From positions 1 through 27,460 of the IMG/VR virus record IMGVR_UViG_3300006616_000062: a stretch of DNA of 27,460 nucleotides; one strand, 5' to 3'. Made by a program: the position numbers and the translations under genes. The DNA comes from a virus. Below the pieces are notes generated by a model that worked only from the letters and a program-made list of their open reading frames with translations, did no database searches and was not told the DNA's origin. Below, one piece after another: positions 9,200 to 27,460 of the stretch. Each line of letters opens with the position of its first letter. Position 1 is the stretch's first letter.

Positions 9200-9210
9200 T
9201 CAAAAATAAT

Positions 9211-9254: not shown

Positions 9255-9260
9255 CATATT

Positions 9261-10061: not shown

Positions 10062-10076
10062 CAAGTGATTATAAAT

Positions 10077-10107
10077 AAGGGTGGTTTTATCGCCACCCTT
10101 TTTTTTT
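10077..10107 (+). terminator. intrinsic terminator before the tail module
   Basis: AAGGGTGG (10077-10084) pairs perfectly with CCACCCTT (10093-10100) around an eight-base loop, followed by a run of nine T. It follows the 266-residue gene by 15 bases. It overlaps the in-frame GTG at 10081, which is why that codon was rejected as the next start. Confidence 0.92.
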
Positions 10108-10119
10108 AAAAATATTAAA

Positions 10120-11187
10120 ATGGCAATAAACGTAAATGAAGTTTATAAAACGGTTTTATTAATATTAAACAAAGAGCAGAGAGGATATATAACTCCTGAT
10201 GAATTTAATAAAACAGGCACACAGGTTCAGTTGGAAATATTTGAAAAGTATTTTGAAGACTTGAATCAAAATTTACGTGTACGTCAAGACGAAACAGAAT
10301 ATGCTGATAGGGTTAAAAATGTAGATGATAAAATATCTATATTTAAAACTCAAGGTAATTGCACTTGGGATGGGGCCAATAAACTATTTACTACTCCCAC
10401 AGATTTACACAGAATAGGTACTGTTATATATAAAGATTCTACAGAGGTTGAAAGAGTACAGAGAAACGATTTATTGTATTTAAAACTTTCACCATTAACA
10501 AAACCTTCTGTTTCTTTTCCTGTATATTCATACGAGGATAAATTAACTACTACTCCAGATCCAAAGATATATATAGAGCCATCATCTATACAATCGGATA
10601 TTTCAGTAACATATATAAGAAAACCTAGTAACGTAAGGTTTGGGTATACTATTGGAGGTTTAGGACAATATTTGTATGACGGTAATGTATATATACCGAC
10701 AGGCTTGCCTGTTGTTAATAACTATTTATTTCAAAGTTTGACAACTAACTTTGTAGCTACATCTAGTACACCAACTAGTGTAAGTTGGACTGGTTTAACA
10801 ACTTCTTCTAATGGTATTACATACGAAGGAAGTGGCACTGGTTTGAAGTTTACTTTGACAATGAACTCTTCTGGAGTTATAACTAACATAAATGTTGACG
10901 AACCTGGAACAGGTTTTGCCGCTGGTGATACATTAACATTCGACTCAACTGTTTTTCAAGCAGGTGGCGGTGGTGGTGGTGGCACTAATGCTGTTATAAC
11001 TTTAACAGCTGCTAGTTTGTATAGTGGTACTACGTATGGTTCTACTCAATTTGAAATAGATAACACTGACCAAACAGAAGCTATATTAAATATATTAAAA
11101 TATTCAGGTATAGTTATAAGAGATCCACAAATAATAAATTCAGCACAACAAATGGCTGCAGCTGAAGATCAAAATGAAAAAAGTTAA
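10120..11187 (+). CDS. tail ring / adaptor protein 1, 355 aa
   Basis: The start is placed at ATG 10120 (MAINVNEVYKTVL), because the upstream in-frame GTG at 10081 lies inside the terminator hairpin. The N-terminal helical block (YKTVLLILNKEQRGYITPDE, then LEIFEKYFEDLNQ) is one I recall from ring (tail adaptor) proteins of crAss-like and other Bacteroidetes phages; such proteins dock under the portal. The C-terminal block (STQFEIDNTDQTEAILNILK, then SGIVIRDPQIIN) is typical of the same core. Between them, at about residues 215-300, sits a Thr/Ser/Gly-rich beta segment (SGTGLKFTLTMNSSG, then EPGTGFAAGDTLTF, then seven glycines in a row) that looks like an inserted domain. Assignment is by recall of the conserved blocks, not by a search. 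Confidence 0.65.
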   Translation: MAINVNEVYKTVLLILNKEQRGYITPDEFNKTGTQVQLEIFEKYFEDLNQNLRVRQDETEYADRVKNVDDKISIFKTQGNCTWDGANKLFTTPTDLHRIGTVIYKDSTEVERVQRNDLLYLKLSPLTKPSVSFPVYSYEDKLTTTPDPKIYIEPSSIQSDISVTYIRKPSNVRFGYTIGGLGQYLYDGNVYIPTGLPVVNNYLFQSLTTNFVATSSTPTSVSWTGLTTSSNGITYEGSGTGLKFTLTMNSSGVITNINVDEPGTGFAAGDTLTFDSTVFQAGGGGGGGTNAVITLTAASLYSGTTYGSTQFEIDNTDQTEAILNILKYSGIVIRDPQIINSAQQMAAAEDQNEKS

Positions 11188-11190
11188 TAA

Positions 11191-12369
11191 ATGGGACTAA
11201 TTACAGAAACTAATGAAGAGTATTACGCTGGTGAAAAAACATTTTTAGTACCTACTAACACTACTTCATTTGCTACAACTTTCAACACAGAACTAACTCT
11301 AGATTCTTCAATAGGTGACAGTAACTTTTTACTTGAAATAAGCACAGACTCAGGTGCTACCTACAATAAATATATAACATTATATCCAGCTGGAGTTATA
11401 TCTTTAAGTAATAATAATAGAACTGTAAATGTAAGTGTTGCTGTGACAGGATCTGCAACTACTATAGCGCGAATAACTTTAACTATAGGTGCTGTAGAAA
11501 ACAATTATGGTGGTTATCAATATGTTAAATTAAATGACATTATAAATACTTTTATAGCTACATATGTTGGTACAGGTAAGTTAATACCAAGTGTTAAAAG
11601 AACTGATGTTATATTCCACGCTAAAAGAGGCTTGCAAGAGTTCAGCTACGACACATTAAAAAGCATTAAGTCACAAGAAGTTTCAATAACACCTAGTTTG
11701 TCAATGATAATACCACAAGACTATGTAAATTATATAAGGTTGTCATGGACAGATGCTTATGGTATTAAACATATTATTTATCCATCTGATAACTTAACTA
11801 TAAAACCAACTGATGTGCCGTTGCAAACTGTAAATGGAGATTATATTCAAGATGAGTTTGGTTCAAATACTCAAGGAACTTCTGAAACTTCTAAAAATTG
11901 GGACAAATTAAACCAAAGAAGATTAAGTGGAGGTTTTGATGCTTATCAATTTGGAGTTGAAAATTATTATGGTGATAGTTACATGTTTGGGCCTCAGCAA
12001 TTAGGTATGAGATATGGAGCACTACCTGAAACTACTCAAGTTAACGGCTATTTTACAATGGATCCAGCAAGAGGTACTATATCTTTTTCTAGTGACATGA
12101 ATGGTAGGAAAGTTGTTTTAGAATATTTATCAGATGGTTTAGCTTATGACACTGATTCTAAGGTGCCTAAGATGGCCGAGGAGGCAATGTATATGCATAT
12201 AGCATATTCTATATTAGCTGGAAGATCTGGAGTTCAAGAATACATTGTTCAAAGATTTAAAAAAGACAGACGAGCGGCACTAAGAAATACTAAAATAAGA
12301 TTATCAGATATTAAATTAGATCAGATAGTTAGAATAATGAGAAACAAATCTAAATGGATTAAACACTAA
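11191..12369 (+). CDS. tail ring / stabilisation protein 2, 392 aa
   Basis: It follows the previous gene by three bases. Residues about 1-11 (MGLITETNEEY) and 105-392 look like one family core, while residues about 12-100 are a separate Thr/Ser-rich beta domain placed between them. The core contains LNDIINTFIATYVG, KRTDVIFHAKRGLQEFSYDT, SLSMIIPQDYVNYIRLSW and a C-terminal helical pair (EEAMYMHIAYSILAG, FKKDRRAALRNTKIRL). I recall this core in proteins of crAss-like and marine Bacteroidetes phages that build a ring between portal and nozzle (P22 gp4-like tail stabilisation or adaptor role). Position between ring protein 1 and the nozzle protein agrees. Residues for DNA gating cannot be assigned. 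Confidence 0.65.
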   Translation: MGLITETNEEYYAGEKTFLVPTNTTSFATTFNTELTLDSSIGDSNFLLEISTDSGATYNKYITLYPAGVISLSNNNRTVNVSVAVTGSATTIARITLTIGAVENNYGGYQYVKLNDIINTFIATYVGTGKLIPSVKRTDVIFHAKRGLQEFSYDTLKSIKSQEVSITPSLSMIIPQDYVNYIRLSWTDAYGIKHIIYPSDNLTIKPTDVPLQTVNGDYIQDEFGSNTQGTSETSKNWDKLNQRRLSGGFDAYQFGVENYYGDSYMFGPQQLGMRYGALPETTQVNGYFTMDPARGTISFSSDMNGRKVVLEYLSDGLAYDTDSKVPKMAEEAMYMHIAYSILAGRSGVQEYIVQRFKKDRRAALRNTKIRLSDIKLDQIVRIMRNKSKWIKH

Positions 12370-12371
12370 GT

Positions 12372-15300
12372 ATGGCTCAAGTTAAAAATACTTTTGTAAA
12401 GTCTAAGATGAATAGAGACTTAGACGCTAGACTTATACCTAATGGTGAATATAGAGAAGGTAGGAATATAGGTATTAGCAAGTCTGAAGGAGCTGATGTT
12501 GGTGCCTTAGAAAACATAAAAGGAAATGTTAATATTTTTCCAGGATTTATAAACAAGCTTAATGCTGGTTTGACACCTAATGAAAAGCCATTAGAAATAA
12601 TAGGCATGTTTACTCATGAAGATAGTTCTTCTATATACATGTTTTTAACTACATTTTCAGACGCTTCTAAAAATCAATTAGAAAATCATGCTAACTTTTT
12701 TAATTCGCATTGCTATATAACTAGAATTAAGTATAATGGTAACTTAACTATACCAGAAGAAAACAGATATGAAACTTCTATACTAGTTGAAGGTAGTTTT
12801 TTAAATCTTTCTAAAACACACCCTATATCAGGATTTAATATAATTGAAGATTTAATGTTTTGGACAGACAATAGAAATAATCCAAGAAAAATAAATATAG
12901 AAAAAGCAGCACAAAAAGCTCCAGGCGACACATCTAAACCTTTTTACTACAAAGAAGATCAAATATCTGTATCTAAATATTATCCTTATAACTCTTTTTC
13001 TTTAATTAGAAGAGACGGTAGTGATTATACTTCTACAGTTAAAAATACTACTACAGAATGGTTACCAATATCTTTGTCTGCTCCTTTAGATTCTATAAAA
13101 ACAGTTGGATCAAATACTGTTTTAAGTTTTCTCGATACTGCTCAACCACAGCCTGCACCTCCCGTAGGCAAACCTAACTGGACTGGTACAGGTGCTCAAA
13201 ACAGTAGTATTGGTAATTTCTTTTCAAAATCTGGAAGTAATGGTTATCCTATTGTAAGAGTTAAAAACGCTCAGAGACCAGGTTCTCAAGACTTATATAT
13301 TTATAATGTGACAGGCAATGAAGTGGGCGCAGCAATATCTCAATCAACACTAACTACTCAAGTTAATATACCAACAGCGCCTGATGGCACAGTATGGGCA
13401 GAGCCTGGTGATGTCATAATATTCCAATTAAAAAATCCAGACTTTGATATAAGCTTTGATGGTGACAGAGAGTTTTTAAAAGATAAATTTCCTAGGTTTA
13501 GCTATAGATTTAAATACACTGATAATGAATACTCGCTCATGGCACCATTTACACAACCCGTGTTTATGCCTGCTCAAGACGGTAGCATAACTTGGCAAGA
13601 TGAAGATGTAGCTACAAAAACTACTGAATTAGGATTTTTTGAAAATAGAGCTAGCGAAATAGGCTTAGTAATTAATCTACCTTACTATCCAGGTGGCAAC
13701 CATGCGGTTACACCTACATTTAATTTACAATTGCAAAGAGAATTACATGTAGATGGAATAGAAATATTGTTTAAGTCGTCTAATGATAATAATATATACA
13801 TTGTAGATAGTATAGATATAAGTGGCGCTGATGGTTGTCCTAGAGAAAATTTAGTTGCTCCTGACGGTCAGTCTACAGCTATAAGAAACCAATTTATATA
13901 TAAATATAAAGGTGCTAAACCTTATAAAGTAGTTCCTGAGTCAGACGTGACAAGAGTTAATGATATTATTCCAGTAAGAGCGTTAGCTCAAGAAACATCA
14001 GGTAATAGAATAATGTATGGGAATTATGTAGATAACCACGCTCTACCACCCTACCTATGGTATGAAGCGAATTCTTCTTTAAAAACGGGTTCATTTGCTC
14101 CAGACTTTAATGTAGCTAACAATCCACCTATAGCAACTACTATAAACAACAAGATTAAAGAGTATTATAACGCAACTTTAAAGCAAGGTAGAACATATCA
14201 AGTAGGGGTAGTATTAGCTGATAGATATGGTAGACAATCTACAGTAATGTTAGCTTCTGAAGCTGAAGACTATGGCAATAACAATAGGAATAGATCAACT
14301 GTTTTTGTGCCTTATAACAATGCTGGCGCAACTACTACCTTAAACTTTTTTGGTAGTTCATTAAAAATGGACTGGCACCTTAAAATACCTGATATAGATG
14401 ATTATAATGCTTTAAATTATCCTGGCTTGTACAATGCTACGCTTAGACCTAACGGTTGGTATAGTTATAAAATAGTAGTTAAACAACAAGAACAGGAATA
14501 TTACAATGTATATGCACCGGGAAGTATGTCTGGTAATGTTATATATAAAGATAATGAAACAAAATTAAATTATTCAGACTCTTGGAACACTTCTAACTTG
14601 TCTTTATATGGCGACAATATCAATAAAATACCTAGGGATATGACCAATGTTGGTCCTACTGATAGGATATACGGTAGTAAAGAGTCTTTATATTATAGGG
14701 TAGTTCAACCTAATTATAATTTTGTATCTCAAAGTACTCCAGCTACTGTATTAACTAACAGGTGGAACTCTAGACAAACAGTGCTTCCTGTATTAGAATC
14801 TACAGTTGTTTCTATACAGCCATTTTTAGATTTAGGTAAATGGGTTACTCAAAAAGGAGTTGCTAATTCTTTAGGTTACCCAGGCGCTTATGATAATTCT
14901 GGGACAACTGTGCCAGGAACTATAGATCCTTTAGTAAAATCAGATAACAATCCGTTTGTAGCTACTGTTAATAATAATGAAAATAAAGATAGAGTAGGTT
15001 TTTTAAATACAACTCAAATATCTAATAGTTCTACAGATTTAGCTAAATTTTCACAATCTTTAATAATTGCAGAAACTAAACCTAAGTTATCTAATTTAGA
15101 ACTTTATTGGGAAACAGCAACATCAGGTTTAATAAGTGATTTAAATGGATCTATATTAACGTCTGGAGACGCTACAGCGCCTAAAGATCTTACAACGTTT
15201 ATATTTACAGGTCAAGAAAGTATTGAGTATTCAGGCGCTAATTTAGCTAATTGTTTATTAAATAAAAATATAAATATCGTTACTAACTCAGGCGTAGAAA

Positions 15301-16499
15301 ATACAAATCCTAATTATAATATAGAAATAATAAGTGTTAAGTCTATAGACGCTAACGGACAAGAAGAGGATGCTACTCCTCTATTTGCTATAAAAGAATT
15401 TGCAGGCTCACCAAAAACTTACAACTTACATTTAACAGACGTTGCTAATACTAATAATCAAGGTTTAGAATACGCAAACCCAGATGGTAACAATGTTTGG
15501 AATAAAGAGTTTGTATTTAATTTTAAACTAACTATAGACGGTAAATTACCAGCGATAGTTTCTAAAAGAAATAACTTTTTTAGCAATGACGCGCCAACTA
15601 TGGGAGCTGTTCCTCAACAGTCTCCAGTAAATCCATCAGATACAGCTAACTGGGTTGGTGACACTTGGACTTTTAGTATAGGAGGTGAAGAACCAGACTC
15701 TGGTCAAACAAATTACAATTACATAAAACAAAATCCTTTATTTGATAAAGAAGTTATAAGTTTAAATACTTATTACAGAATAAATAATACTAGTAGAAAT
15801 AACGTAAGAAATAGAAATCAATTATTTTTTAACCAATACCAATGGGGATCGTATAATACTGGAACCCCACCATATCCAATATTTCCTACAGGCAAATCTA
15901 ATGTTGGATGGAATAATGGTAGTTTTGCCGGTTTAAATTCAGATACTGAACTTTACATAGAAAAATTAGAATGTGCTATAAACAAAGGAAACGACACTGA
16001 AAAGTTTGGTTTTCAAGAGTGGTGGACATTAAAGAAGTTAGGTGTTACAGAAGCTGACAGAGCTCAGGGTACTATTACTCCTGAACCTGATTGGTTTCAT
16101 CCTAATACTAATATATATGCTAACAATACTAATCCAACTATAGTAGATCTTAGTGGCAGTGCTTACGGTAGTCAAAATTTAAGATACACTTATTATGACT
16201 ATCCTTGGAAGCTAGAGTTTATAGAATACAACCCGTCTAATCCAGCTCCTTGGCTTAGTGGTAGTGGGTTTGATCCTTTTACTAGTGGTTGGTATTTACT
16301 AGCAAATGGTGATCAACCTCCTTTTGAATGGCAAGGTGCCGCTACTGAAAAAAATAACAATAGGTTTTGGGCTGAAGGATTTTTAAATGGTGGGCAATAC
16401 AGCGTACATAAACTAACTATAGGTGTAAGAGAAACATTTGCTAATGGTAAAAAGTCTCAAACTGGACAATTTGTTATTTACGTAAAACTTTATAGATAA
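12372..16499 (+). CDS. large tail nozzle (muzzle)-type protein, 1375 aa
   Basis: It begins MAQVKNTFVKSKMNRDLDAR followed by LIPNGEYREGRNI and ALENIKGN, an N-terminal signature I associate with tail nozzle or stabilisation proteins of podoviruses (T7 gp12 / P22 gp10-like beta-propellers; the muzzle of crAss-like phages). The chain is almost all beta, rich in Asn, Thr, Ser and Tyr, with no membrane segments and many aromatic-Gly-Asn turns, as in a propeller with inserted side domains. It is much longer than T7 gp12, so extra domains are expected. The TAA stop overlaps the ATG of the next gene by one base (TAATG). Role: forms the distal tube through which DNA passes. Function is from motif recall and position, not from an alignment. 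Confidence 0.62.
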   Translation: MAQVKNTFVKSKMNRDLDARLIPNGEYREGRNIGISKSEGADVGALENIKGNVNIFPGFINKLNAGLTPNEKPLEIIGMFTHEDSSSIYMFLTTFSDASKNQLENHANFFNSHCYITRIKYNGNLTIPEENRYETSILVEGSFLNLSKTHPISGFNIIEDLMFWTDNRNNPRKINIEKAAQKAPGDTSKPFYYKEDQISVSKYYPYNSFSLIRRDGSDYTSTVKNTTTEWLPISLSAPLDSIKTVGSNTVLSFLDTAQPQPAPPVGKPNWTGTGAQNSSIGNFFSKSGSNGYPIVRVKNAQRPGSQDLYIYNVTGNEVGAAISQSTLTTQVNIPTAPDGTVWAEPGDVIIFQLKNPDFDISFDGDREFLKDKFPRFSYRFKYTDNEYSLMAPFTQPVFMPAQDGSITWQDEDVATKTTELGFFENRASEIGLVINLPYYPGGNHAVTPTFNLQLQRELHVDGIEILFKSSNDNNIYIVDSIDISGADGCPRENLVAPDGQSTAIRNQFIYKYKGAKPYKVVPESDVTRVNDIIPVRALAQETSGNRIMYGNYVDNHALPPYLWYEANSSLKTGSFAPDFNVANNPPIATTINNKIKEYYNATLKQGRTYQVGVVLADRYGRQSTVMLASEAEDYGNNNRNRSTVFVPYNNAGATTTLNFFGSSLKMDWHLKIPDIDDYNALNYPGLYNATLRPNGWYSYKIVVKQQEQEYYNVYAPGSMSGNVIYKDNETKLNYSDSWNTSNLSLYGDNINKIPRDMTNVGPTDRIYGSKESLYYRVVQPNYNFVSQSTPATVLTNRWNSRQTVLPVLESTVVSIQPFLDLGKWVTQKGVANSLGYPGAYDNSGTTVPGTIDPLVKSDNNPFVATVNNNENKDRVGFLNTTQISNSSTDLAKFSQSLIIAETKPKLSNLELYWETATSGLISDLNGSILTSGDATAPKDLTTFIFTGQESIEYSGANLANCLLNKNINIVTNSGVENTNPNYNIEIISVKSIDANGQEEDATPLFAIKEFAGSPKTYNLHLTDVANTNNQGLEYANPDGNNVWNKEFVFNFKLTIDGKLPAIVSKRNNFFSNDAPTMGAVPQQSPVNPSDTANWVGDTWTFSIGGEEPDSGQTNYNYIKQNPLFDKEVISLNTYYRINNTSRNNVRNRNQLFFNQYQWGSYNTGTPPYPIFPTGKSNVGWNNGSFAGLNSDTELYIEKLECAINKGNDTEKFGFQEWWTLKKLGVTEADRAQGTITPEPDWFHPNTNIYANNTNPTIVDLSGSAYGSQNLRYTYYDYPWKLEFIEYNPSNPAPWLSGSGFDPFTSGWYLLANGDQPPFEWQGAATEKNNNRFWAEGFLNGGQYSVHKLTIGVRETFANGKKSQTGQFVIYVKLYR

Positions 16500-18292
16500 T
16501 GGCTTTTAATTTAGAAATATCTTATTTTAATTCTTTTTGGGTAAAAAAGACAAATAACCAATGGACAGAGTCACAATATCCTACAAGTGGCTATGGTAAT
16601 ATATCTAAAATACCTAATTGGCCAGGTGTGCCTTATAAAACTTATGGTACTACTGCAGCTACTAGACATTTAAACTATGTTTCCACTTCACAGATGTCTT
16701 CTATACCTAACCAAAGAGCAGATGTTAATTACTCTCCTGATTCAGAAGATTTAACATTAAATTGGCTTATAGAAGAGTCAAGAATAAGAGGCGCTTTTAA
16801 TGGTGACTCTACTGATTATGGAGTTAAAGCTTATTTATTAGATGATGAATATACTGCTGTAACTAGAAAAAACAATGTCATATACTCAGGCTTATTTAAC
16901 TCTAAAACAAACGTTAATGAAACAAATGTTTTTTCATCAGCTCAAAGCATAACTTTTGCAGCGCCAGAGCAATATGGATCTATACAAAAGCTATATAGTG
17001 AAGATACTAAACTATTATTTTTTCAAGAAAATAAAGTTAGTAGAGCTATGGTTAACAAAAATATTTTATATACAACTGAAGGAAGAGGAGCACCTGTTAG
17101 CTCACAAAATCTCGTAATAGGGGAAATAACTCCATTTGTAGGTGAATATGGTATTAGTAGGAATCCTTATTCATTTGCTCAATTTGGTAGAAGAAAATAC
17201 TTTACAGATAAAAATAGAAATGTAGTATTAAGACTATCGGACAATGGGTTAACGCCTATAAGTGATTATGGTATGGCTGATTTTTTTAGAGATAGATTAG
17301 CTGAAATAGATGATAACTTATATCAAAATATAGTAACAAGAAGTTTGTCAGGTGTGCGATCACCAACTTGGCCTTACAATACTGTTCAAACCATTGGAGT
17401 AGGAGAGCCTTATATAGAAATAAATAACCCAGGTGGTAATATTGGTGATCTTTTCACAGGAGTACCTATAGGAGCTTCAATCGTAATAGATGATATAGAT
17501 ACAGGTTGTTATGTTAGGAATGTAGATTTAACTAATGGTAGAGTGCAGTTGACAGAATTAATTCCTTTTGACTTTCCATCAGGCGCTACAGCTAGTTTTA
17601 TAACTTATGAAAAAGATAAAGTTATAGGTGCTTATAATACTTATACAGACAAATATGTTTTAAGTATGCAGAAAAGAGATGGTACTTACAACACATTATC
17701 TTTTGATGAAAAAGTATTAGGTTGGGTATCTTTTTATGATTACAAGCCTTATAATGCTAAAAGTTTGTTCAACAGATTTTATACTACAAGTCAAACTAAC
17801 TTATGGATGCATAACGCTGAAAATGTATTAAGAAATAGTTTCTATGGTAATGAGCCAGTAAACTCTTCTATAGAGTTTGTATTTAATGCTCAGCCAAACA
17901 TAGTTAAAACGTTTAAAACAGTTAACTACGAAGGTACCAATGGTTGGGAATTAACTAGTATGATAAGTGATCAAACAGGAGCTTTAGCAGCAGGTGGTGG
18001 CTTTGAAAGTTTTGAAGATGAAACAGCAGTCATAAGAAGTTATAATGAAGGATTGTATATTGAAGATGGTATACAATATAGAGCAGGATTTGATTTAAAA
18101 GAAAATAGATACGTAGCTAATGTTATTAATAATACACCTGCTCAACCAGGTGAAATAATAATAGGTGATCAAGCTAGTGGTATCAAAGGATATTTTACAA
18201 CATTGAAACTAACAACAGACGCAACAACAGATTTAGGTGGAACAAAAGAATTATTTGCCGTAGGATCTGAGTATGTCATGTCATCTTATTAA
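16499..18292 (+). CDS. second nozzle-type tail protein, 597 aa
   Basis: A beta-rich protein starting on the last base of the previous stop. Two blocks are familiar: YNTYTDKYVLSMQKRDGTYN, then LSFDEKVLGWVSFYDYKPYN (about residues 380-418), and SSIEFVFNAQPNIVKTFKTV with NYEGTNGW (about 460-485). I recall such blocks from C-terminal parts of nozzle/stabilisation proteins in crAss-like and related phages. It may therefore be the second half of a nozzle made from two chains, or a separate subunit paired with the 1375-residue protein. It has its own ATG and an intact N-terminal segment, so it is not simply a frameshift product. The C-terminal 90 residues may be a receptor-facing or capping domain, but nothing shows this directly. 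Confidence 0.6.
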   Translation: MAFNLEISYFNSFWVKKTNNQWTESQYPTSGYGNISKIPNWPGVPYKTYGTTAATRHLNYVSTSQMSSIPNQRADVNYSPDSEDLTLNWLIEESRIRGAFNGDSTDYGVKAYLLDDEYTAVTRKNNVIYSGLFNSKTNVNETNVFSSAQSITFAAPEQYGSIQKLYSEDTKLLFFQENKVSRAMVNKNILYTTEGRGAPVSSQNLVIGEITPFVGEYGISRNPYSFAQFGRRKYFTDKNRNVVLRLSDNGLTPISDYGMADFFRDRLAEIDDNLYQNIVTRSLSGVRSPTWPYNTVQTIGVGEPYIEINNPGGNIGDLFTGVPIGASIVIDDIDTGCYVRNVDLTNGRVQLTELIPFDFPSGATASFITYEKDKVIGAYNTYTDKYVLSMQKRDGTYNTLSFDEKVLGWVSFYDYKPYNAKSLFNRFYTTSQTNLWMHNAENVLRNSFYGNEPVNSSIEFVFNAQPNIVKTFKTVNYEGTNGWELTSMISDQTGALAAGGGFESFEDETAVIRSYNEGLYIEDGIQYRAGFDLKENRYVANVINNTPAQPGEIIIGDQASGIKGYFTTLKLTTDATTDLGGTKELFAVGSEYVMSSY

Positions 18293-18301
18293 AATTAAAA
18301 T

Positions 18302-19156
18302 ATGGGTTTATTAAACAACAATAATCATAGAAGAAATAAAAGAGCTAATTTAAGAAAGCAAAACACATTAGGTAGTGGTTCATTAGGTTATCAACCTGGT
18401 ACGTTTTCTACTCAAGGATTAGGAAGTTCTACTAGCCTTCTTGGTAGTGGAAATGCTTTTCAAAATTCTCAACCTAATCTTTCATTAAACGTAAGTCCAA
18501 TTAACACTGCAAACCCGTCAGCTAGTACTGGCCCGTCAGCTAGTACTGGTGGTGGTGGAAACATGATGGGTTATATGCAATTAGCGGCAGCTGCTACACC
18601 TATGGTTATGGGTTTTATACAAGGTAGACAGCAACAGGAACGATTTGAAGACTTAGAAGAAAAAAGACTTGTTAAAGATAAACAAATTCAAGGCATGTTA
18701 AATAATAGACAAGACATAAGAAACCCTTATGCTAACTTAGCTGTAGCTACTGAAGCGGCAGAGTTCCAAGCTCAACAGGTAGATCAATCACTTGCTAATA
18801 CTTTAGACGCTATGCAAGCTGGAGGTTTTGGAGCTGGTGGTGCTACTGCGTTAGCTAGAGAAGCTGCAAAAGCTAAACAAGGTATCTCAGCTGACATACA
18901 AAAACAAGAAGCTATGAATCAAAGAATGTTTGCTCAAGGTGAACAAGTTAGACAAAGCATGCAAGAACAAAGGTCTATTGATGATATTGATTTTGCTAGA
19001 GCTCAATCTGATAATTTAAGACAAATGGAGATGGATGCTTTAACAGCTAAATCAGCGGCACAACAAGGTGGAGTTGGTGGTAGTATGCAAATAGCTCAAA
19101 CTATTATGTCTAATCCAGAGGCGATGAAATCTATATCTGGATTATTTGGAAGTTAA
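18302..19156 (+). CDS. internal virion / ejection protein candidate, 284 aa
   Basis: The N-terminus is basic (NNNHRRNKRANLRKQN), followed by a Ser/Gly/Leu/Asn-rich linker with a PSASTG repeat, a hydrophobic Ala/Met-rich helix at about residues 88-108 (MMGYMQLAAAATPMVMGF) and then a long Ala/Gln-rich helical region to the end. A small basic, partly membrane-active helical protein placed right after the nozzle genes fits the internal core or ejection proteins of podoviruses (the place of T7 gp14). No sequence family is recognised; the function is inferred from order and composition. Confidence 0.55.
   Translation: MGLLNNNNHRRNKRANLRKQNTLGSGSLGYQPGTFSTQGLGSSTSLLGSGNAFQNSQPNLSLNVSPINTANPSASTGPSASTGGGGNMMGYMQLAAAATPMVMGFIQGRQQQERFEDLEEKRLVKDKQIQGMLNNRQDIRNPYANLAVATEAAEFQAQQVDQSLANTLDAMQAGGFGAGGATALAREAAKAKQGISADIQKQEAMNQRMFAQGEQVRQSMQEQRSIDDIDFARAQSDNLRQMEMDALTAKSAAQQGGVGGSMQIAQTIMSNPEAMKSISGLFGS
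18514..18549 (+). repeat. 18-bp perfect tandem repeat, two units
   Basis: CCCGTCAGCTAGTACTGG occurs twice without a gap (18514-18531 and 18532-18549) and encodes PSASTG twice inside the linker of the internal protein. The frame is kept. A perfect duplication suggests a recent event. Confidence 0.9.
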
Positions 19157-19166
19157 AAAATAAAAT

Positions 19167-20396
19167 ATGGCAACAAGAAGATCAAGATATACACCTAGGT
19201 TAGTTAGAGATCCAAGAGGCATGCAGGCTGCTAGATTTACAGCAGGTATGGGTAAAGCTTTTGCTGATACTTTAGGTACTATAGCTAAAACAAAAGCAGA
19301 TGAAAAAGCAGCTTTAAATAAATTAACTAAAGAAAGTTTAACACAATCACAAGCTTATTTAGATAAGATAAAAGATTTTAAAAGAACTAATAGCCCTTTA
19401 GATGAGCAGATAATAGGTTTAATAGAGGAAGATGCTAGAATGATTAGTGATGCTTATATGAAAGCTTATAGCCCTGATGGAACGCCTGAAGACATGATAG
19501 CTTATCAAAAACTAAATAATCAAACAAGTAGATCGCTAGATGATCTAACTATGATGATAGGCGCTATAGATATTGACAATGATGCTAGAGATTTAGCTAA
19601 ACAAGAAAATAGAATTATATATGATAAAGACTCTAATGGTAATATTATAAACAATGCTGATGAAGATATTTTTAAGTATGGCATAACTAACGGGGCTTCT
19701 GATATTAAACTTACTAGAGGTCCAAATGGTTTTGTTTTGTCAGGTAAAGCTGTAAAAGACGATGGAACAATGACAGGTGATGTTACTATGGACGTGGCTG
19801 ATTGGTCTGAAAGTTTAAGGAAAAATGGTAAATCATTTGAAGAAAAAAGTGCTAACTTGGACTTAACCTCAACTGATTATGGTAAAGGGTTAGTTGATAA
19901 ATTTAAAGATCAAATAGAGATAGACATAACAGGTGATGCAAAAATAGTAGATAATCCTAATTATTTAAAAGGTGGAGCTACTCCTGATCCTAAAAATCCA
20001 GGTTATGACACGGCTGGTAATAGAGCTAAAATGAAACAAACAGAATCTTACACCATAAAAGATCCTAAAAAAGCTAAGGAAGTTATATTAAATTATTTTA
20101 ATGACGCTGGTGGTATTGTTAGTTTTGACAAAAATAAATCCGTGCCTTCTGAAAAAGAGTTGTGGGCAATGTTGCAAGAGCAAGGTAGACTAGATTATAG
20201 CCTTCTTAATAGAACGCCTGGAAAAGTAAAAGAAAGTTGGAGTCAAATAAATCCTAGTATGATGGACGATGCTAAGCTATTACTACAAAGAGCTTATGCT
20301 GATTATATAGTTGAAACAATGTCTCCAACAGGTCAAGAAAAAACTAATGTAACTAAAAACTTTGGATCAGCAATTGATACAAGTAAATATCAATAA
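19167..20396 (+). CDS. putative internal virion protein, 409 aa
   Basis: I do not recognise a family. The N-terminus is basic (ATRRSRYTPRLVRDPRG) followed by long helices (residues about 30-145, including TIAKTKADEKAALNKLTKES and DDLTMMIGAIDIDNDARDLA), a mixed alpha/beta middle and a helical C-terminus ending in SAIDTSKYQ. There is no signal peptide or strong membrane segment. It lies between the Ala/Gln-rich protein and the giant gene, the slot where podoviruses encode core proteins ejected ahead of the DNA, so an internal virion role is inferred. The start is ATG 19167 after an A-rich leader (aaaaaataaaat). Confidence 0.5.
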   Translation: MATRRSRYTPRLVRDPRGMQAARFTAGMGKAFADTLGTIAKTKADEKAALNKLTKESLTQSQAYLDKIKDFKRTNSPLDEQIIGLIEEDARMISDAYMKAYSPDGTPEDMIAYQKLNNQTSRSLDDLTMMIGAIDIDNDARDLAKQENRIIYDKDSNGNIINNADEDIFKYGITNGASDIKLTRGPNGFVLSGKAVKDDGTMTGDVTMDVADWSESLRKNGKSFEEKSANLDLTSTDYGKGLVDKFKDQIEIDITGDAKIVDNPNYLKGGATPDPKNPGYDTAGNRAKMKQTESYTIKDPKKAKEVILNYFNDAGGIVSFDKNKSVPSEKELWAMLQEQGRLDYSLLNRTPGKVKESWSQINPSMMDDAKLLLQRAYADYIVETMSPTGQEKTNVTKNFGSAIDTSKYQ

Positions 20397-20399: not shown

Positions 20400-23300
20400 A
20401 TGAACGAAGAAGCAATAGATTCAGCATTTACTTTATTCTCTGAAGCAGGGTATAATAAAGATAAAGCTAGTTATTTAAAGTTAATTCAAGAAAATGAAGA
20501 CGCTTTAAACGACTCTTTTTCCTTATTTAAAGAGGCTGGCTATAAAAACGACATTAACAACTTTAAAAATTTAATGGGTTTTGAAGTTGAAGATGAAGTA
20601 GAAGTTGTAAGCGATCCCAAAAAAGAAAAAGGTGTAGACGCTGAGAGCGTTATACAAGGCTTTGACTCATACTTAGAAGCACTTAGTAATGAAGATTATA
20701 GAGATGATAATATAAAAGACAATGATGCTAGATTAGCAGAAATTGAAAAAGTTAAAAAAGAAAAAGCTAATTTTAATTCTACTATAAATAAAAATCCTGG
20801 AATATTAGAATCTGCAAATGATATATTATCTTTAGATAAAGATGTTACAGAAGAAGAAATACAAGCAGAAGAAGTAGTTGGTAATTCTTATTTTGATGAT
20901 TTTGCTATAAAAAGAAAAAAAGAAGGTAAAAGCTTTTACGACAATGATAGAAAGAACGAAAGAAGGATGCAGGAGCTTTTGTTTGGTGAAGGAAAAACAG
21001 GTGCTGAAAATGATCCAATAAAAAACGAGTTTAATCAATACGCAGCATCGTTAATGGACATAACAAACGCTGCGAAAGAATTAGGTTTAAAACCAACAGC
21101 TGATAAAGAAAAAGCTAAAAAAGATAAATCTTACACTTACATACCTGATGTTTCTAGCGGTAATATAGATGAAATATCTTTAGAAGTATTAGAAAGAGCT
21201 AACTATAATCAGAAAAAGAAACAAGCTAAAGAAGGTAGGTTTAAAGCAATAAAGCCTGAATTAGATAAAAAACTTAACGAATTTGAACAAAAATTTGGAG
21301 CTACTAATGCTGAAAAAGCTTTATCCCTTGTAAAAACTCTTGGACAAGCCAGTACACTTCCTGGTCTTGCAAAGGTTGGCGTTCAAAAATATTTAGGTAT
21401 ACCTGATAAAGAGCATGTAAAATACACAGAAAATAGAGATAAACTTTATAATTTAGTTTCGTCAGGAGAAAAAGCTTCTAATTACAAACTAAAAAGTACT
21501 CTTTATAACATAGGGACTAGCGTGGAAGATGTTGCTTCTGTTAAAGCTGAGTTGCAGAGAGTTAGTAATAATATAAAAAATAATACTTACCCAACACAAG
21601 CTGATTATGATAAATACAATAGTTTAATTGAAGAGTTAAAAATTAAAAATGAGGCTATTGATGCACAAATATCTTTTTTAAATAGTATAGAAGTAGAATC
21701 TGATGTAATAAGTGAGATAGCTAAAGAAACTAAAAAAACATATGAAACTTTAGACGTTTACCAAAATAATATAGCGTCTAGCACTGTTAGACTAGCAGCG
21801 GGATTAGGAAATGTTGTTAATGAAACTTTAAACCCTATAAATTTACTAGAATGGACTGGCTATGATTTAAACAACGAGGAAGTTAGAAACAATGTAGCTG
21901 AAAAGCTTAGTGATATTACAGGTGTTAATGAAGATACTATAAAAGCAAATTTTAAATTACTAGATAAAGGTGATCAAAGCATAGATAAAGCTTTAAATGA
22001 TTTATCAGGTCTTGCAGAAGAAATAAAACAAAGAAACAGAGATCCTCAAAGATTTGATGAAATAAATAGTCTTGCGGAGTTTGCATCATGGAGTGGTGAA
22101 ATGTTGTCTGATCAAGTTGTTAACACTGGTATGTCTATAGTCATGCCTGGTTTTGGTTTAGTATTGTCGGCAGCGTCTGAAGCAGGTAACAAGATGCATG
22201 AGATGAAAACTGAGATTGGTGGAGAAGAGTGGGACGAGGGTACTAAAGCTTACATACAAGAGTTTAAGAAAGAGTTTGGTACAAATCCTTTTGGAATAGA
22301 TGCTGATGATAACTTTATGATAAAGCCTAAAGAATATAATGCATTGCAATTTTTTGCAACCGCAGGTGTTTATGGAGCTGCGGAATATTACAGTGAAAAA
22401 ATAGCTTTAAAGAACTTTGGTATGGGTTCTAAAAACCTTAAAAAAGCTTTTGACTTAGCTAGAAGATCAGGTGCAGATGACATTATTTTTAGTAATACTG
22501 GTAAGACTAATTGGGGTTATTTAAAAGATTTTGGTAAAGATTGGTTTAGAGGTGGTGTAGAAGAATCCGTAGGTGAAGGATCAGTTGCTTTAGCTGGTAA
22601 CTTTATGGATAGATTTATATTAGGTAAAACCGAAGTATCTATGCTAGATGGTGTGACAGAATCTATGGTATCTGGTTTTGTCATGAACTCAGCCTTTCAA
22701 TCTCCAGCTATAGCAGGTCAAGTTTACAACGCATTTAGACCAGAAGGAATAAATGCTAAAGTCGCAGCTACTGGAGCTGAAATGGTTAGGCTTAGTAAAA
22801 TAAGAGATGATTACAATTTAAGGTTAGGAGAGCTACAACCTGGAAGTAAAGAACACACAGACGTTGTTGCAGCTAAACAAACTGTAGAAGATCAAATACA
22901 TGATTTAGCTAAAGAACAATTAGAAAATTACGAAAAAACAAGTAATGATATAGTCGCTTTAACAAAACAAGATAGGCAGTCTTTAATAGATATTTTTAAT
23001 CGTGAGCATAAGTTAAGAGATGAAATAGACGGAATAAATAGTAATCCTGAACTTGATGAAAAAACTAAAGCTAAAGAGATTACCGCACTTCAGAAAAAAT
23101 TAGTTGTTGAAAATGCTTTTAAAGAAAGAGTATTAGCTAACTCAAAATGGAATGCTGATAAAGCTAGATCTAGTAAATTTGCTAATATGTGGCGAGCTAA
23201 AACTGGCACATTGAATCAAGTTGTTAATATAGCAGGTGATAATAATACTGACGCATTAGAGCAAGGTTTAAAACATATAGACAGCTTAGATAATCTTACG

Positions 23301-26300
23301 GCTGAAGAAAAGAATCAAGTTAAAGACCAAATGAAAGCTGAGTTTGAGAGAGCTAAACAAGAATCTAAAGGTGACTTTACTGTACATGGTATGGCTTTTG
23401 GTGATAATATCACTGTTCAAACTAAAAATGCAGATGGTTCTATGTCGAGCAGGAAGGTTAATATACCTATGAACTTTGCTATGAGTAGAGCAAATGCAAA
23501 TGTTCAGTCTCATGAAATGGGTCATCAAACTGTATTTAAAGAGTTTATGCAAAATAATCCTAATGCTATAGGATTAGTTAGTGACATGGAGTCTTATATT
23601 AAAAAGAATTTTAAAGGAGACATATTACAAGAGCTTAAAGAGGTAGAAGAAGCTTACAAAAATAGGCCTAAAGCAGAGATAGCTGAGGAAAAACTAGCTA
23701 GAATTAGTGACTTTTTAAGAGGAAGAAACATGAAAGGTGATAGAACCTTATATAATAAACTATTTGGTAGATTTCAAAAGTTTAATGATGGTTCTTCTCA
23801 GCAAATAAACACGGGTAAAGACGTGTTTGATATGATTACTAGCTACAACCAGTCTTTTGAAACAGGTACTCTCACAGGTTTAACTAAAGCAATTGCTGAG
23901 GGTAGAGTTGAAACAGATAAAAAACCAAGATCAACTAGAAGATCTATGACTAAAGCTGAGCAAAGTAAAGTTGAAGATGATCTTAATAATGCTCCAGGTG
24001 CTAGAAATAAAGACGGTAAATACACTATGACTAAAGCAGAATGGAGAGCTGATAAAAATAGAGCATTTAGTAAAGCATATAACATGCTTATGAATGGTGA
24101 TTTAGATGGTCTTATAATTGCTAAAATGGCTTCTGGTAAAGATATATATGGCCAAGCAAGGGAAGAGTTCTTAAGTGATGCTAGAGATAAAATAGGACAG
24201 CATATACTTAACTTTGATCCACAAATGCAAGATAGCTTATTTGGCTGGGTTAATTCTTACATAAGTAGAAAAGTTGGTGATGTAGCTAAAAAAGCTAAAA
24301 GAGAAAAAGAAAAGACGCCAGGTAAAAGAATATCTACAGATCAAAAAATAAGTGAAGAAGGTAGAACAGTTGCTGAAACTATTGAAGGTGATACAGCTAG
24401 TGATATAGAAGCTGCAGTCGATAGATCATTAAATGCTAAGAAAAAAGGTATTGATAATCTTAGAACTAGACTAGGTATTGAAAAAGGTGGTAAGATATAT
24501 AACAAAGTAGTTGACGCTGTTAAAAAAGTATTTGGAGCTAAACTACCTGAAGTATCTAATAAGAATTTTAAAGAAGCTCTTAAAAAAGATTTTAATACTT
24601 TATTATTTAAAGATATTAAAAATGATATAGGAACTAGAGCTAAATATAAAGAGTTTATTGAAGGTAATGTAACTTTTAAAGATGCAGATGGCAATACAAA
24701 GACAATGCCTCGTTGGGAAATGTTATATGATTATATTTCTCAGTCTACGTTTAATAAAAGATTTGAGCCATTTATAGAGCCTTTAATAGATCCAGCTACA
24801 GGAAAACAAGCTAGACCTGATAATAATCCTTTGTTTACTAAAAAGAAAATAACTAAACAACAATGGGTTGATTATTTTTTAGGTGATAATGTACAAGCAT
24901 CGACTAAAGGAACTAGAAAAGATGCTTTAGCTTCTGCCATAGCTCAAGAACTAGCTTTTGATGCTACAATGGAAACTATATCAGATCCAGATATACAAGC
25001 TAGAATAAAAGATATTTATGAGTCACAAGGTTTAAGACAAGTTGAAAACTATTTAGAGCAAGTAGCTAAAGAAATAGATAGAAAACCTGATAGTAAATTT
25101 AGTATAACTAAAAAACCTGTTGTAGAAAGATTACAAAAACACATGGAAGATTCTAAAGGTATTACACCTATTGAAGCTTTTGATAATTTTTACAACAAAC
25201 TAAATGAAAGCGACAAGCAAGCTATTATAAGCGAGAGATCGGCTATAGAAAATATTTCTAAAAAGGAGGCAAAAAGATTTAATAGAAAAATAAAAGAACC
25301 TAAATCTAAAAGAAAAGAAGAAAAAGGAGTTTTAGCTAGACAAGATCAAATAGTTGAAGAAGCAGGTTATAAACCTCTAGAAAGAAGAGGAGAGGGAAGA
25401 GCTAGTAGTATAAAATACTTAATGACTAATTTTTTTCCTAAACTTTTTAAAGAGTTTGGCGATGTTTCTTCTAAGTTTATAAATACCAGCAACTTATCAC
25501 CTTCTGGAAATGAGGCATTTTCTTATAAACCTGATGGAAAAATAAAAGGTGGTGCTATCAAAAGAGCTCAGTTATTTATAACTTCAGCTATTAAAACTAA
25601 AAAATCAATACCTGGAACTTTAAAAGCTATACAAGAAGGTAATTTAGAAACTGTTGATGCAGTTAAAAAACTTCAAAAAAATACAGATTTTAAAAACTTA
25701 CCAAATGAGAAAGCTAAAAACATAGAAGTATCTTTAAGAAAGCAAAAAACTAAAGATTTACAAAGAAATTTAAAAACTAGAGAACAGCACAAAAAAGGGT
25801 CTATGGCTTATCTTTCTCTTTTTAAGAAAATGTACGATGCTGATAATAACACACTGCCAGGTATTCAGTTTTTAAATTATAACCAAAACGCTAACGATGC
25901 TAATTATAGAAATTTAGCTCAATTAATAGGTGTAGAAAACGGTGTTAAAAAAGGTAGAGAAGAACACATATATCAAGCTGGGCCATGGAGCACTAGAGTA
26001 TTACAAGCAATAACAGCTAAGAACCCTAAAGTGTTTGAGGCTTTTAACAAGTGGCAAGCAGACAATTATTATCAAGAAACTATAGCTGAAAAAAATAAAG
26101 AAGGTACAAGCTCTGAAAGTTTAATTGATGGTACATACACCATGCCAGATGGTTCTACGTGGGAAGCAAAGTCACAAGAACATCCTATACTTAAAAAAGC
26201 TTTAGATGAAGCTATGTTAACTGGAGACTTTAGCAATGTTCCAAGTCCTGATATAAGAAAATATAATGAAGTATTTCATTTAAACCCTAATAATATAATT

Positions 26301-27460
26301 AGAGAGGGAGTTAGTGATGCTACACGTTACAATGTTGAAGTTGCTGAAGACTTAAGAAACATACCAGAAGTTGTAGAGCTACAAGCAGAGTTGATATTCT
26401 TGCAACTATCAGGTCAAATGGATGCTGCCACTGCTAAAGGTTATTTAGAGGCTGGATTACCTATTGCTAAAGCAAAATTTTCAGTAACAAAAGATAACAA
26501 GAAAATGCTTAATGATAGTGGAGTTGTTGATACTTCTACTGAATTAACAAACGCTGAAACTATAGAACAAGCTGGAATATTAGATGACGCTTTAGATGTA
26601 GCTAGAAATCCTAAAGCACCTATTAAAAAGATTAGAGTATTTGATTTTGACGACACATTAGCTAAAAGTAAAAGCTTAGTATTTTATAATAGACCTAACG
26701 AAAGTGGCAAACCTGTGCCTAATAACAAAGCTATATTTATGATAGGAGGACCTGGTTCTGGAAAGTCTAATATAGGTAAAGGATTACAATTAGGTAGAGA
26801 TGGTTGGAAAGTTGTTAATCAAGATATATTTATAGAAACTGAAAAAGCAAAAGCTGGATTACCAGAATCAGAAAAAGACTATACTAAAGAACAAAGAAGT
26901 AAAAGAGCTAAGATAGGTGCTGCAGGTAGGAAAGCTGCTGAAGCTAAGATGGATAAGTATACTAAAGCTGGAAATGGTATGGTTATAGATGGCACAGGTG
27001 CTAGCTACAATGCTACTATGAAAAAAGTTAATAAACTTAAAGAACAAGGCTATGAAGTATTTATGGTACATGCTAAGACATCTAATGAAGTAGCACTTGA
27101 AAGAAATAGAGCTAGAAAAGAAAGATCGTTACCTGACTTTATAGTAGAAAAAACACAGCAGTCTGTCAACAATAATATTGATCAATACAAAAATGATCTA
27201 GGTGATAACTTTATAGAAATAGATACTGAAACTATAGAATATGGTAAGCCTTTACCTAAGGAATTTGTAGACGATGCTAAAGCTAGATTTTATGCTACAG
27301 AGCGAGGTAAGTTAAATGCTGAAGAGTTTGCTGAGCAAGGATCTAGCTTAATAGACCAAGGCTTTGCAATGGACTTTTCTGATTTTAATATTGTAAGAGA
27401 AGGAGAAAAAGGACCTTTATTTAATGTTGCTAAAAAAATTCAAGAAGCAAGAGGTACAGA
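20400..27460 (+). CDS. giant multi-domain virion/polyvalent protein (3' end beyond window), more than 2353 codons
   Basis: One frame stays open from ATG 20400 to the window end. The start lies three bases after the previous stop, and no Shine-Dalgarno sequence is seen. Domains in order: a duplicated 30-residue module (7-59); charged helices; hydrophobic Gly/Ala-rich segments (about 578-593, 648-665 and 715-760); a zincin motif HEMGH (1038-1042); long charged helical stretches; a block with STFNKRFEPFIEPLIDPATG and TKGTRKDALASAIAQELAFD (about 1460-1530); a further conserved-looking region (EEHIYQAGPWSTRVLQ, about 1855-1870); HAD motif I (DFDDT, 2082-2086); a P-loop kinase (GGPGSGKS, 2116-2123); and what looks like resumption of the HAD domain from about 2303. 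The place after tail and internal proteins suggests a protein packed in the head and ejected. Giant phage proteins combining zincin, phosphatase and kinase domains belong to the 'polyvalent protein' theme; that link is inference. Confidence 0.9.
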   Translation, partial: MNEEAIDSAFTLFSEAGYNKDKASYLKLIQENEDALNDSFSLFKEAGYKNDINNFKNLMGFEVEDEVEVVSDPKKEKGVDAESVIQGFDSYLEALSNEDYRDDNIKDNDARLAEIEKVKKEKANFNSTINKNPGILESANDILSLDKDVTEEEIQAEEVVGNSYFDDFAIKRKKEGKSFYDNDRKNERRMQELLFGEGKTGAENDPIKNEFNQYAASLMDITNAAKELGLKPTADKEKAKKDKSYTYIPDVSSGNIDEISLEVLERANYNQKKKQAKEGRFKAIKPELDKKLNEFEQKFGATNAEKALSLVKTLGQASTLPGLAKVGVQKYLGIPDKEHVKYTENRDKLYNLVSSGEKASNYKLKSTLYNIGTSVEDVASVKAELQRVSNNIKNNTYPTQADYDKYNSLIEELKIKNEAIDAQISFLNSIEVESDVISEIAKETKKTYETLDVYQNNIASSTVRLAAGLGNVVNETLNPINLLEWTGYDLNNEEVRNNVAEKLSDITGVNEDTIKANFKLLDKGDQSIDKALNDLSGLAEEIKQRNRDPQRFDEINSLAEFASWSGEMLSDQVVNTGMSIVMPGFGLVLSAASEAGNKMHEMKTEIGGEEWDEGTKAYIQEFKKEFGTNPFGIDADDNFMIKPKEYNALQFFATAGVYGAAEYYSEKIALKNFGMGSKNLKKAFDLARRSGADDIIFSNTGKTNWGYLKDFGKDWFRGGVEESVGEGSVALAGNFMDRFILGKTEVSMLDGVTESMVSGFVMNSAFQSPAIAGQVYNAFRPEGINAKVAATGAEMVRLSKIRDDYNLRLGELQPGSKEHTDVVAAKQTVEDQIHDLAKEQLENYEKTSNDIVALTKQDRQSLIDIFNREHKLRDEIDGINSNPELDEKTKAKEITALQKKLVVENAFKERVLANSKWNADKARSSKFANMWRAKTGTLNQVVNIAGDNNTDALEQGLKHIDSLDNLTAEEKNQVKDQMKAEFERAKQESKGDFTVHGMAFGDNITVQTKNADGSMSSRKVNIPMNFAMSRANANVQSHEMGHQTVFKEFMQNNPNAIGLVSDMESYIKKNFKGDILQELKEVEEAYKNRPKAEIAEEKLARISDFLRGRNMKGDRTLYNKLFGRFQKFNDGSSQQINTGKDVFDMITSYNQSFETGTLTGLTKAIAEGRVETDKKPRSTRRSMTKAEQSKVEDDLNNAPGARNKDGKYTMTKAEWRADKNRAFSKAYNMLMNGDLDGLIIAKMASGKDIYGQAREEFLSDARDKIGQHILNFDPQMQDSLFGWVNSYISRKVGDVAKKAKREKEKTPGKRISTDQKISEEGRTVAETIEGDTASDIEAAVDRSLNAKKKGIDNLRTRLGIEKGGKIYNKVVDAVKKVFGAKLPEVSNKNFKEALKKDFNTLLFKDIKNDIGTRAKYKEFIEGNVTFKDADGNTKTMPRWEMLYDYISQSTFNKRFEPFIEPLIDPATGKQARPDNNPLFTKKKITKQQWVDYFLGDNVQASTKGTRKDALASAIAQELAFDATMETISDPDIQARIKDIYESQGLRQVENYLEQVAKEIDRKPDSKFSITKKPVVERLQKHMEDSKGITPIEAFDNFYNKLNESDKQAIISERSAIENISKKEAKRFNRKIKEPKSKRKEEKGVLARQDQIVEEAGYKPLERRGEGRASSIKYLMTNFFPKLFKEFGDVSSKFINTSNLSPSGNEAFSYKPDGKIKGGAIKRAQLFITSAIKTKKSIPGTLKAIQEGNLETVDAVKKLQKNTDFKNLPNEKAKNIEVSLRKQKTKDLQRNLKTREQHKKGSMAYLSLFKKMYDADNNTLPGIQFLNYNQNANDANYRNLAQLIGVENGVKKGREEHIYQAGPWSTRVLQAITAKNPKVFEAFNKWQADNYYQETIAEKNKEGTSSESLIDGTYTMPDGSTWEAKSQEHPILKKALDEAMLTGDFSNVPSPDIRKYNEVFHLNPNNIIREGVSDATRYNVEVAEDLRNIPEVVELQAELIFLQLSGQMDAATAKGYLEAGLPIAKAKFSVTKDNKKMLNDSGVVDTSTELTNAETIEQAGILDDALDVARNPKAPIKKIRVFDFDDTLAKSKSLVFYNRPNESGKPVPNNKAIFMIGGPGSGKSNIGKGLQLGRDGWKVVNQDIFIETEKAKAGLPESEKDYTKEQRSKRAKIGAAGRKAAEAKMDKYTKAGNGMVIDGTGASYNATMKKVNKLKEQGYEVFMVHAKTSNEVALERNRARKERSLPDFIVEKTQQSVNNNIDQYKNDLGDNFIEIDTETIEYGKPLPKEFVDDAKARFYATERGKLNAEEFAEQGSSLIDQGFAMDFSDFNIVREGEKGPLFNVAKKIQEARGT
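20418..20576 (+). other. duplicated 30-residue N-terminal module of the giant protein
   Basis: Residues 7-29 (DSAFTLFSEAGYNKDKASYL...) and 37-59 (NDSFSLFKEAGYKNDINNFK...) align with a 30-residue offset: F10/F40, L12/L42, F13/F43, E15-A-G-Y18 / E45-A-G-Y48, Y25/F55. The pattern is a short helix, a tight Gly-Tyr turn and a second helix. I recall similar small modules at the start of other Bacteroidetes phage proteins. It may be a docking or packaging tag. Confidence 0.75.
23382..23714 (+). other. zincin-type metalloprotease region
   Basis: HEMGH at residues 1038-1042 fits HExxH, with the two His as zinc ligands and Glu as catalytic base. It is preceded by beta-type sequence (FTVHGMAFGDNITVQTK) and sits in a helix (SRANANVQSHEMGHQTVFKE), as zincins require. 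A candidate third ligand is E1096 or E1097 in EEKLARISDF, which loosely recalls the NExxSD helix of gluzincins although the spacing to S1103-D1104 differs. The motif is short and could arise by chance, but the surrounding strand-then-helix order supports it. Confidence 0.6.
26625..27460 (+). other. HAD phosphohydrolase domain with an inserted P-loop kinase (incomplete at window end)
   Basis: HAD motif I is VFDFDDTLAKSK, with D2082 as nucleophile and D2084 as acid/base. About 30 residues on, a full kinase begins: Walker A GGPGSGKS (2116-2123), NQD2142 in the zeta-toxin/PNK substrate-Asp position, VIDGTG (2195-2200) and an Arg-rich lid RNRARKER (2235-2242). From about 2303 the sequence GKLNAEEFAEQG and then FNIVREGEKGPLFNVAKKIQ reads like the cap region that normally follows HAD motif I. 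HAD motifs II to IV must lie past the window. PNKP-type enzymes also combine the two activities, but side by side rather than nested. Confidence 0.7.

Follow-up and report, generated by a model that had tools for sequence, protein, structure and literature searches.

A complete P-loop kinase nested at the cap site of a predicted HAD phosphatase in a giant phage protein: a candidate unit for nucleic-acid end healing

In the giant protein encoded at the end of the analysed window (the whole stretch, namely the first 27,460 nucleotides of a virus record of 32,389 bases), a complete P-loop kinase is almost certainly nested inside a complete HAD phosphatase. Our preferred explanation, to which we assign a probability of about 0.4, is that the two form a nested bifunctional phosphoryl-transfer unit healing nucleic-acid ends in a Pnkp-like way, with the kinase at the cap site of the phosphatase and with probable delivery together with the phage genome. 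Both active sites are conserved, and kinase and HAD are very likely both catalytic; that their substrate is a nucleic acid is put forward tentatively, at somewhat less than even confidence.

The ORF read in the full record codes for 3195 aa (Table 1), and homologous giants in relatives reach about 1900-3600 aa, some of them being cut by contig ends. The original prediction, made from the letters of the window, described a DFDDT motif I followed by a complete nested kinase and proposed a search for HAD motifs II-IV in the bases downstream. The motifs do lie at their predicted places, the kinase scores above the Pfam cut-offs, and the contig continues the HAD as expected. Its sequence resumes at GKLNAEEF (residue 2303, base 27306), and at contig positions of about 27480-27660 motifs II-IV follow in frame: VFVLTARAPES with the LTAR of motif II, GLGKSTGEAKAQW including GEAKAQW with the motif III Lys, and FYFADD with the acidic pair of motif IV. 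The segment after the kinase had been taken for resumed cap-like sequence; it proved to be HAD core instead, and it is the kinase itself that stands at the C1-cap site. In the alignment of relatives the conserved motif III Lys is that of GEAK, the Lys of GLGKS being variable, and the T, R, K, D and D of motifs II-IV are kept in 171 distinct relatives, a single alignment gap in one row being the sole exception. On the N-terminal side, the first hairpin strand extends in the protein alignment to about 26711. Features characteristic of the HAD superfamily were thus found on both sides of the kinase, namely motif I at the end of the first Rossmann strand and motifs II, III and IV downstream, and the top structural matches of the AlphaFold2 model of the empty form are HAD phosphatases with the Rossmannoid fold. 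Judged from motifs I-IV, the HAD split by the kinase is predicted to be a complete phosphatase domain.

Table 1. Positions of the nested unit, its motifs and the neighbouring features in the window
Feature	Position	Strand	Basis
Genes collinear with the structural module of Cellulophaga phage phi38:1 (gp090-gp099), upstream of the giant gene	1537..20396	+	gene-by-gene blastp
Giant multidomain ORF with the nested unit	20400..27460, continues to contig 29987	+	ORF reading; homologous giants in relatives
HEMGH, zincin-type peptidase signature, same giant protein, upstream of the nested unit	23511..23525	+	HExxH count in giants
HAD N-terminal piece: first strand, motif I, start of flap hairpin	26622..26662	+	alignment to kinase-less HADs; blastn collinearity with L239 ends at 26662
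HAD motif I DFDDT, residues 2082-2086, predicted nucleophile Asp2082 and Asp2084	26643..26657	+	Asp pair in 171/171 distinct relatives; strand end in AlphaFold2 model
Inserted segment with P-loop kinase, about 600 bases net, absent in kinase-less relatives	26663..27305	+	blastn against L239
Folded P-loop kinase domain (AAA_33 / Zeta_toxin / PNK class), residues about 2105-2299	26712..27296	+	Pfam; AlphaFold2 model residues 36-230; structural match
Walker A GGPGSGKS, residues 2116-2123	26745..26768	+	Lys in 78/78 kinases
VNQD, residues 2139-2142; Asp2142 aligned to T4 Pnk Asp35	26814..26825	+	HMM alignment to T4 PseT; Asp in 78/78
VIDGTG, residues 2195-2200	26982..26999	+	DGTG in 78/78 kinases
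Arg-rich lid RNRARKERS, residues 2235-2243; Arg2239 aligned to T4 Pnk Arg126	27102..27128	+	lid Arg pair in 78/78; alignment
HAD C-terminal piece: second flap strand and core	27306..27460, continues past window	+	contig reading, alignment

Directly after the window end the record carries a run of ten N (27461-27470), a scaffold gap lying right behind the kinase, and one might suspect that the split HAD is an artefact of assembly or of this gap, or that DFDDT arose by chance in a domain of another kind. The contig protein shows 4 X at this place versus one residue in gap-free relatives, so the length of the ten-N gap is nominal, and the conclusion on the complete split HAD is based on the gap-free relatives. 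These show the nested arrangement themselves: the reading frame and every motif are preserved in the 72 distinct nested sequences, nearly all of which are free of a gap at this place. An artefact of the scaffold gap is thereby rejected, and the suspicion as a whole is hardly credible.

The relatives were collected from IMG/VR by a scan with the 293-aa segment (199 confirmed relatives, the best 80 of them being used), by a kinase-profile scan (best 80 of 103) and by a HAD-profile scan (best 80 of at least 549). After duplicate removal, at least 72 sequences are nested, at least 97 contain the HAD only and at least 2 carry the kinase at another place in the protein, these counts resting on the best 80 loci per scan and not being frequencies of the forms. 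In the latter two, L116 and L121, kinase and HAD stand unnested, side by side in one polypeptide; L117 and L119 possess the kinase with the HAD absent, and the HAD of L128 is unscored only since the contig ends there. The suggestion that similar nested pairs occur in other phage giant proteins was thus borne out. The spacing between motifs I and II, among relatives having both, is bimodal, 76-77 residues for the HAD alone versus 274-279 with the kinase inside and none between, and this distribution, together with the 72 distinct nested sequences, argues that the nested arrangement is not due to chance. The HAD halves match across the nested and HAD-only classes, the kinase block simply being missing from the latter. 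L239, a HAD-only locus, shows the empty site: it is collinear with the window contig through 4.7 kb ending at 26662 (79% nucleotide identity) and again through 3.2 kb beginning at 27306 (87%), and the interval amounts to 643 bases in the window versus 46 in L239. The break falls at the hairpin tip, which reads VLYTAPDGTNGKLNAEEF in L239 and VFYNRPN, kinase, ATERGKLNAEEF in the window protein. Cultured phage records gave no match to the HAD at E 0.01, and the genome collection gave 10 loci in metagenome-assembled genomes, mostly on short contigs taken as phage.

For modelling of the nested form with AlphaFold2 the gap-free relative L003 was used (91% identical over the scanned segment, 63 aligned sequences). 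The model (mean pLDDT 90.1, pTM 0.77) places DFDDT at the end of strand E8-13 and the kinase between strands E24-30 and E231-237; in the model of the kinase-less L036 (mean pLDDT 87.6) strands E24-28 and E34-38 make a plain hairpin. What had been expected of a structure prediction, DFDDT at a strand end and the kinase between the flap strands rather than beside the HAD, is what the models contain, and side-by-side domains in the window protein are rejected by motif order, empty-site collinearity and model alike. By a published definition (PMC8069645), a C1 cap is a distinct unit inserted midway in the HAD flap hairpin, and since the modelled kinase lies between the flap strands, the position that it fills at the hairpin tip is, according to the models, that of a C1 cap. 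Among the relatives examined no other inserts were seen at the hairpin that bears the kinase. Because the kinase holds the cap position, it probably shapes the access to the HAD active site. Most C1 caps known from HAD enzymes are helical or alpha+beta lids. In C1-capped HADs, P-type ATPases included, the extra domain is placed in mid flap hairpin after motif I just as in the window protein, and the C1 insert of P-type ATPases also binds ATP; in contrast to them, the window protein has as its insert an entire P-loop phosphotransferase, active site included.

Assignment of the inserted domain relies on several Pfam profiles, all above cut-off: AAA_33 (E 9.8e-12, 45.8 bits against a cut-off of 27), Zeta_toxin (E 3.6e-11, 43.3 bits against 22.3) and CPT (5.4e-7). 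PHROG 505, polynucleotide kinase, matches the kinase with E 1.1e-7, and NCBIfam returned weak matches only, including bacter_Pnkp (E 0.0088). With dN/dS of 0.02-0.15 between close pairs, the kinase sequences indicate purifying selection. Profile comparison ranks Pnkp first (2.7e-6) and zeta next (2.6e-4), and the best structural match is the kinase of C. thermocellum Pnkp (Z 17.8, 2.8 A over 165 residues), followed by O-phosphoseryl-tRNA kinase (Z 16.7) and then by zeta toxin and T4 Pnk (14.9). The HMM alignment to T4 PseT finds equivalents of T4 Lys15, Ser16, Asp35 (the general base) and Arg126 in the window kinase, the Ser16 equivalent (Ser/Thr) being Gly in 18 of 78 relatives. At the site of T4 Arg38, all 78 distinct kinases have Leu or Ile, followed in 77 of them by Glu, and with this equivalent replaced the nested unit is not filed as Pnkp. 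The Asp-xxx-Glu pattern is also present in the kinases of HTVC008M and Atu_ph07, so the domain is, by its sequence, a member of a phage kinase subfamily rather than a textbook PNK.

For the phosphatase half, the PDB sequence search with the HAD profile gave no HAD match, and comparison of folds was therefore needed. The kinase-less HAD model has the T4 Pnkp 3'-phosphatase (5uj0) as its top match (Z 9.1, 2.8 A over 114 residues) and bacterial Pnkp1 as the second (Z 8.7), the next HAD families scoring 8.4-8.0, less than one unit behind the top. Foldseek with the same model gave no significant HAD match; the PNK3P profile matches 4 of 48 HADs weakly (best E 0.012), and hhalign of the HAD to T4 Pnk detected no significant sequence match beyond motif I. 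The two halves, compared separately, both suggest Pnkp, the HAD only weakly. Repair of nucleic-acid ends, one of the functions originally proposed, is consequently retained as plausible: both halves find their best structural matches in Pnkp, but the lead of the HAD is marginal, Arg38 is replaced in 78/78 kinases and no RNA ligase of PF09414 was found above its cut-off.

As we envisage the preferred end-healing function, a complete P-loop kinase from the PNK/zeta class would have been inserted at the flap-hairpin tip of a HAD that is otherwise small-capped. The kinase would use ATP for phosphorylation of a hydroxyl, with the Walker A Lys binding ATP, Asp2142 acting as general base and the Arg lid closing over; the HAD would remove phosphate via an aspartyl-phosphate (Asp2082, with the Thr, the Lys and the Asp pair). 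Removal of 3'-phosphate and phosphorylation of 5'-OH would together amount to the healing of nucleic-acid ends, performed by a single domain within a polyvalent protein that would probably come in together with the genome of the phage. An ATP-dependent DNA ligase is found in 17 of 20 contigs longer than 55 kb, with or without the kinase, so that a sealing partner exists. A kinase-ligase link was considered and dropped, DNA ligase being equally common without the kinase once contig size is taken into account; RNA ligase PF09414 gave nothing above cut-off, its one sub-cut-off match overlapping the DNA ligase position. PADLOC returned nothing useful. Among the observations that touch upon end healing, the renewed pairing of kinase and HAD in one polypeptide in L116 and L121, although unnested, speaks for it, while the Leu/Ile at the Arg38 site, the weak likeness of HAD sequence and its small Z lead over other HADs, the equal ligase frequency without kinase, the lack of PF09414, the L117/L119 kinases having no HAD and the absence of a kinase from most of the recovered HADs, so that the phosphatase can do without it, speak against it.

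The evolutionary history of the unit is where the main competing explanation gains ground. A HAD tree was built without the kinase columns from nested and HAD-only rows (a quick tree with SH-aLRT support only); it needs 8 changes of kinase state, of which 4-5 are forced by well-supported branches. The HAD of the L015 locus is 90% identical to that of the kinase-less L031 and 83% to that of L244, and yet the kinases of L015 and L244 share only 53%. From the state changes and these discordant identities, the kinase appears to have entered or left the flap hairpin repeatedly, at least 4-8 times, and a single origin with vertical inheritance is not favoured. The hairpin might accordingly be a tolerant insertion port and the kinase an independent effector uncoupled from the HAD, for example a zeta-like enzyme acting on a nucleotide-sugar or other metabolite of the host. 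We consider this a possible explanation of perhaps one chance in three. The repeated gains and losses and the disagreement of kinase and HAD histories agree with it, as do the kinase placed elsewhere in L116/L121 or without any HAD in L117/L119, the Zeta_toxin match and the zeta-like kinases reported in polyvalent proteins (PMC5512222). Nevertheless, some coupling is suggested by the recurrence of independent entries at one hairpin and not at linkers and by the single chain that the two enzymes share in L116/L121; in addition, no other cargo was encountered at this hairpin in the relatives examined.

Coupling of another kind would be a switch resembling PFK-2/FBPase-2, in which kinase and phosphatase oppose each other on one small molecule or protein. 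The tight one-to-one fusion and the PFKFB entries among the Foldseek matches of the nested model could be read this way; those matches, however, are read as concerning the P-loop part only, and the phosphatase of PFKFB is not a HAD. The recurrence of HAD-only forms makes such a switch dispensable, and we regard it as improbable. About equally unlikely, though compatible with end healing, is a closer integration in which the kinase would serve as an ATP-driven C1 cap: nucleotide-dependent motion of the lid would gate the HAD, and 5'-kinase and 3'-phosphatase would share a composite cleft and heal both ends of one break. If true, the ATP-driven cap would represent the Pnkp topology reached by domain nesting and not by tandem fusion, as a module swappable between phages.

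Delivery of the end-healing unit with the genome is suggested by analogy. Genes upstream of the giant match Cellulophaga phage phi38:1 (Pervagoviridae) in the same order at 24-37% identity by gene-by-gene blastp, and residues 550-913 of the giant match phi38:1 gp101, annotated as a structural protein (25%, E 4e-12), which has 1691 aa versus 3195 in the window giant; a proteomics paper on phi38:1 does not mention gp101. Of 81 giants, 77 carry an HExxH signature upstream of the HAD versus 0.3 expected in shuffles, and Pfam gave no zincin profile match in the giant protein. According to Iyer et al. (2017; PMC5512222), polyvalent proteins are phage proteins of great size with many domains, zincin peptidases being the commonest and zeta-like kinases also occurring; the window giant resembles them in size and in its HExxH segment of zincin type. 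By this likeness the giant may be a polyvalent protein, probably entering with the phage genome, and the unit might then act on entry as originally suggested. A text search of that paper gave no "phosphatase" and, among the matching passages, no HAD-fold domain and no nested pair.

T4 Pnkp, bacterial Pnkp and mammalian PNKP likewise join a P-loop kinase to a phosphatase within a single polypeptide (5'-kinase, 3'-phosphatase). In T4 Pnkp, however, the domains are side by side with the kinase N-terminal, whereas in the window protein the kinase is inside the HAD, whose sequence is not recognisable as PNK3P; the Leu/Ile in place of Arg38 is a further difference. The kinase has kin among stand-alone phage zeta/AAA_33 kinases of the same subfamily, from Pelagibacter phage HTVC008M (AGE60463, 106 bits with the kinase profile), Methylophilales phage Melnitz and Agrobacterium phage Atu_ph07, which share the Asp followed by Glu at +4, DGTG or DSTG and the RN lid, but are not placed in a HAD and bear only the annotation "hypothetical" in the records examined. 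In BFVD the relatives are entered as uncharacterised proteins, one of them as UDP-N-acetylglucosamine kinase. Both component families and the insertion site, the cap site, are already known, and for the nesting itself no description of a P-loop kinase inside a HAD was found in the open-access literature.

The cap site of a HAD here holds a whole second enzyme, whose gain or loss apparently recurred at one and the same hairpin, and the unit may be viewed as a natural experiment in which one enzyme is inserted into another with both active sites conserved. It provides a candidate end-repair activity in a protein that may be delivered together with the DNA of the phage, and the natural set of forms, HAD alone, nested, unnested in one chain and kinase alone, makes the question of coupling between the two enzymes directly testable.

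Among the relatives of the giant protein, the kinase and the HAD phosphatase are also met in other arrangements. In two giant proteins (loci L116 and L121) the HAD domain is whole and uninterrupted, the kinase being located approximately 800-1000 residues upstream of it; at L117 and L119 both HAD halves are absent and the kinase occupies the expected HAD place. The same kinase subfamily is held by a different multidomain protein of Agrobacterium phage Atu_ph07 (AUZ94865, 778 aa; L257:721-3057).

Two giant HAD-kinase genes, L023 and L025, are oppositely oriented on the single contig IMGVR_UViG_3300025131_000066. Within the nested region they share 86.6% identity across 1.1 kb, but immediately downstream only 67%. 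Gene conversion, paralogy or chimeric assembly may account for this pair.

On the contig of the window itself, the nominal length of the scaffold gap is unreliable, because the four X it yields in the window record correspond to one residue in relatives. By eye only, the open-ended frame listed below resembles the C-terminal portion of a ribonucleotide reductase.

Features of the window's contig beyond the window
Feature	Contig position	Position in L002 (part of the same contig)	Strand	Basis
Ten-N scaffold gap	27461-27470			
ORF, open-ended	31481-32389	11481-12389	minus	inspection by eye only

As for the catalytic residues, Walker A reads GxxxxGKG in 18 of the 78 distinct kinases, a kinase clade comprising L134, L137, L130 and 15 others, where the Mg-binding Ser/Thr is replaced by Gly and the remaining checked catalytic residues are retained; these kinases may represent an active variant or have changed metal use.
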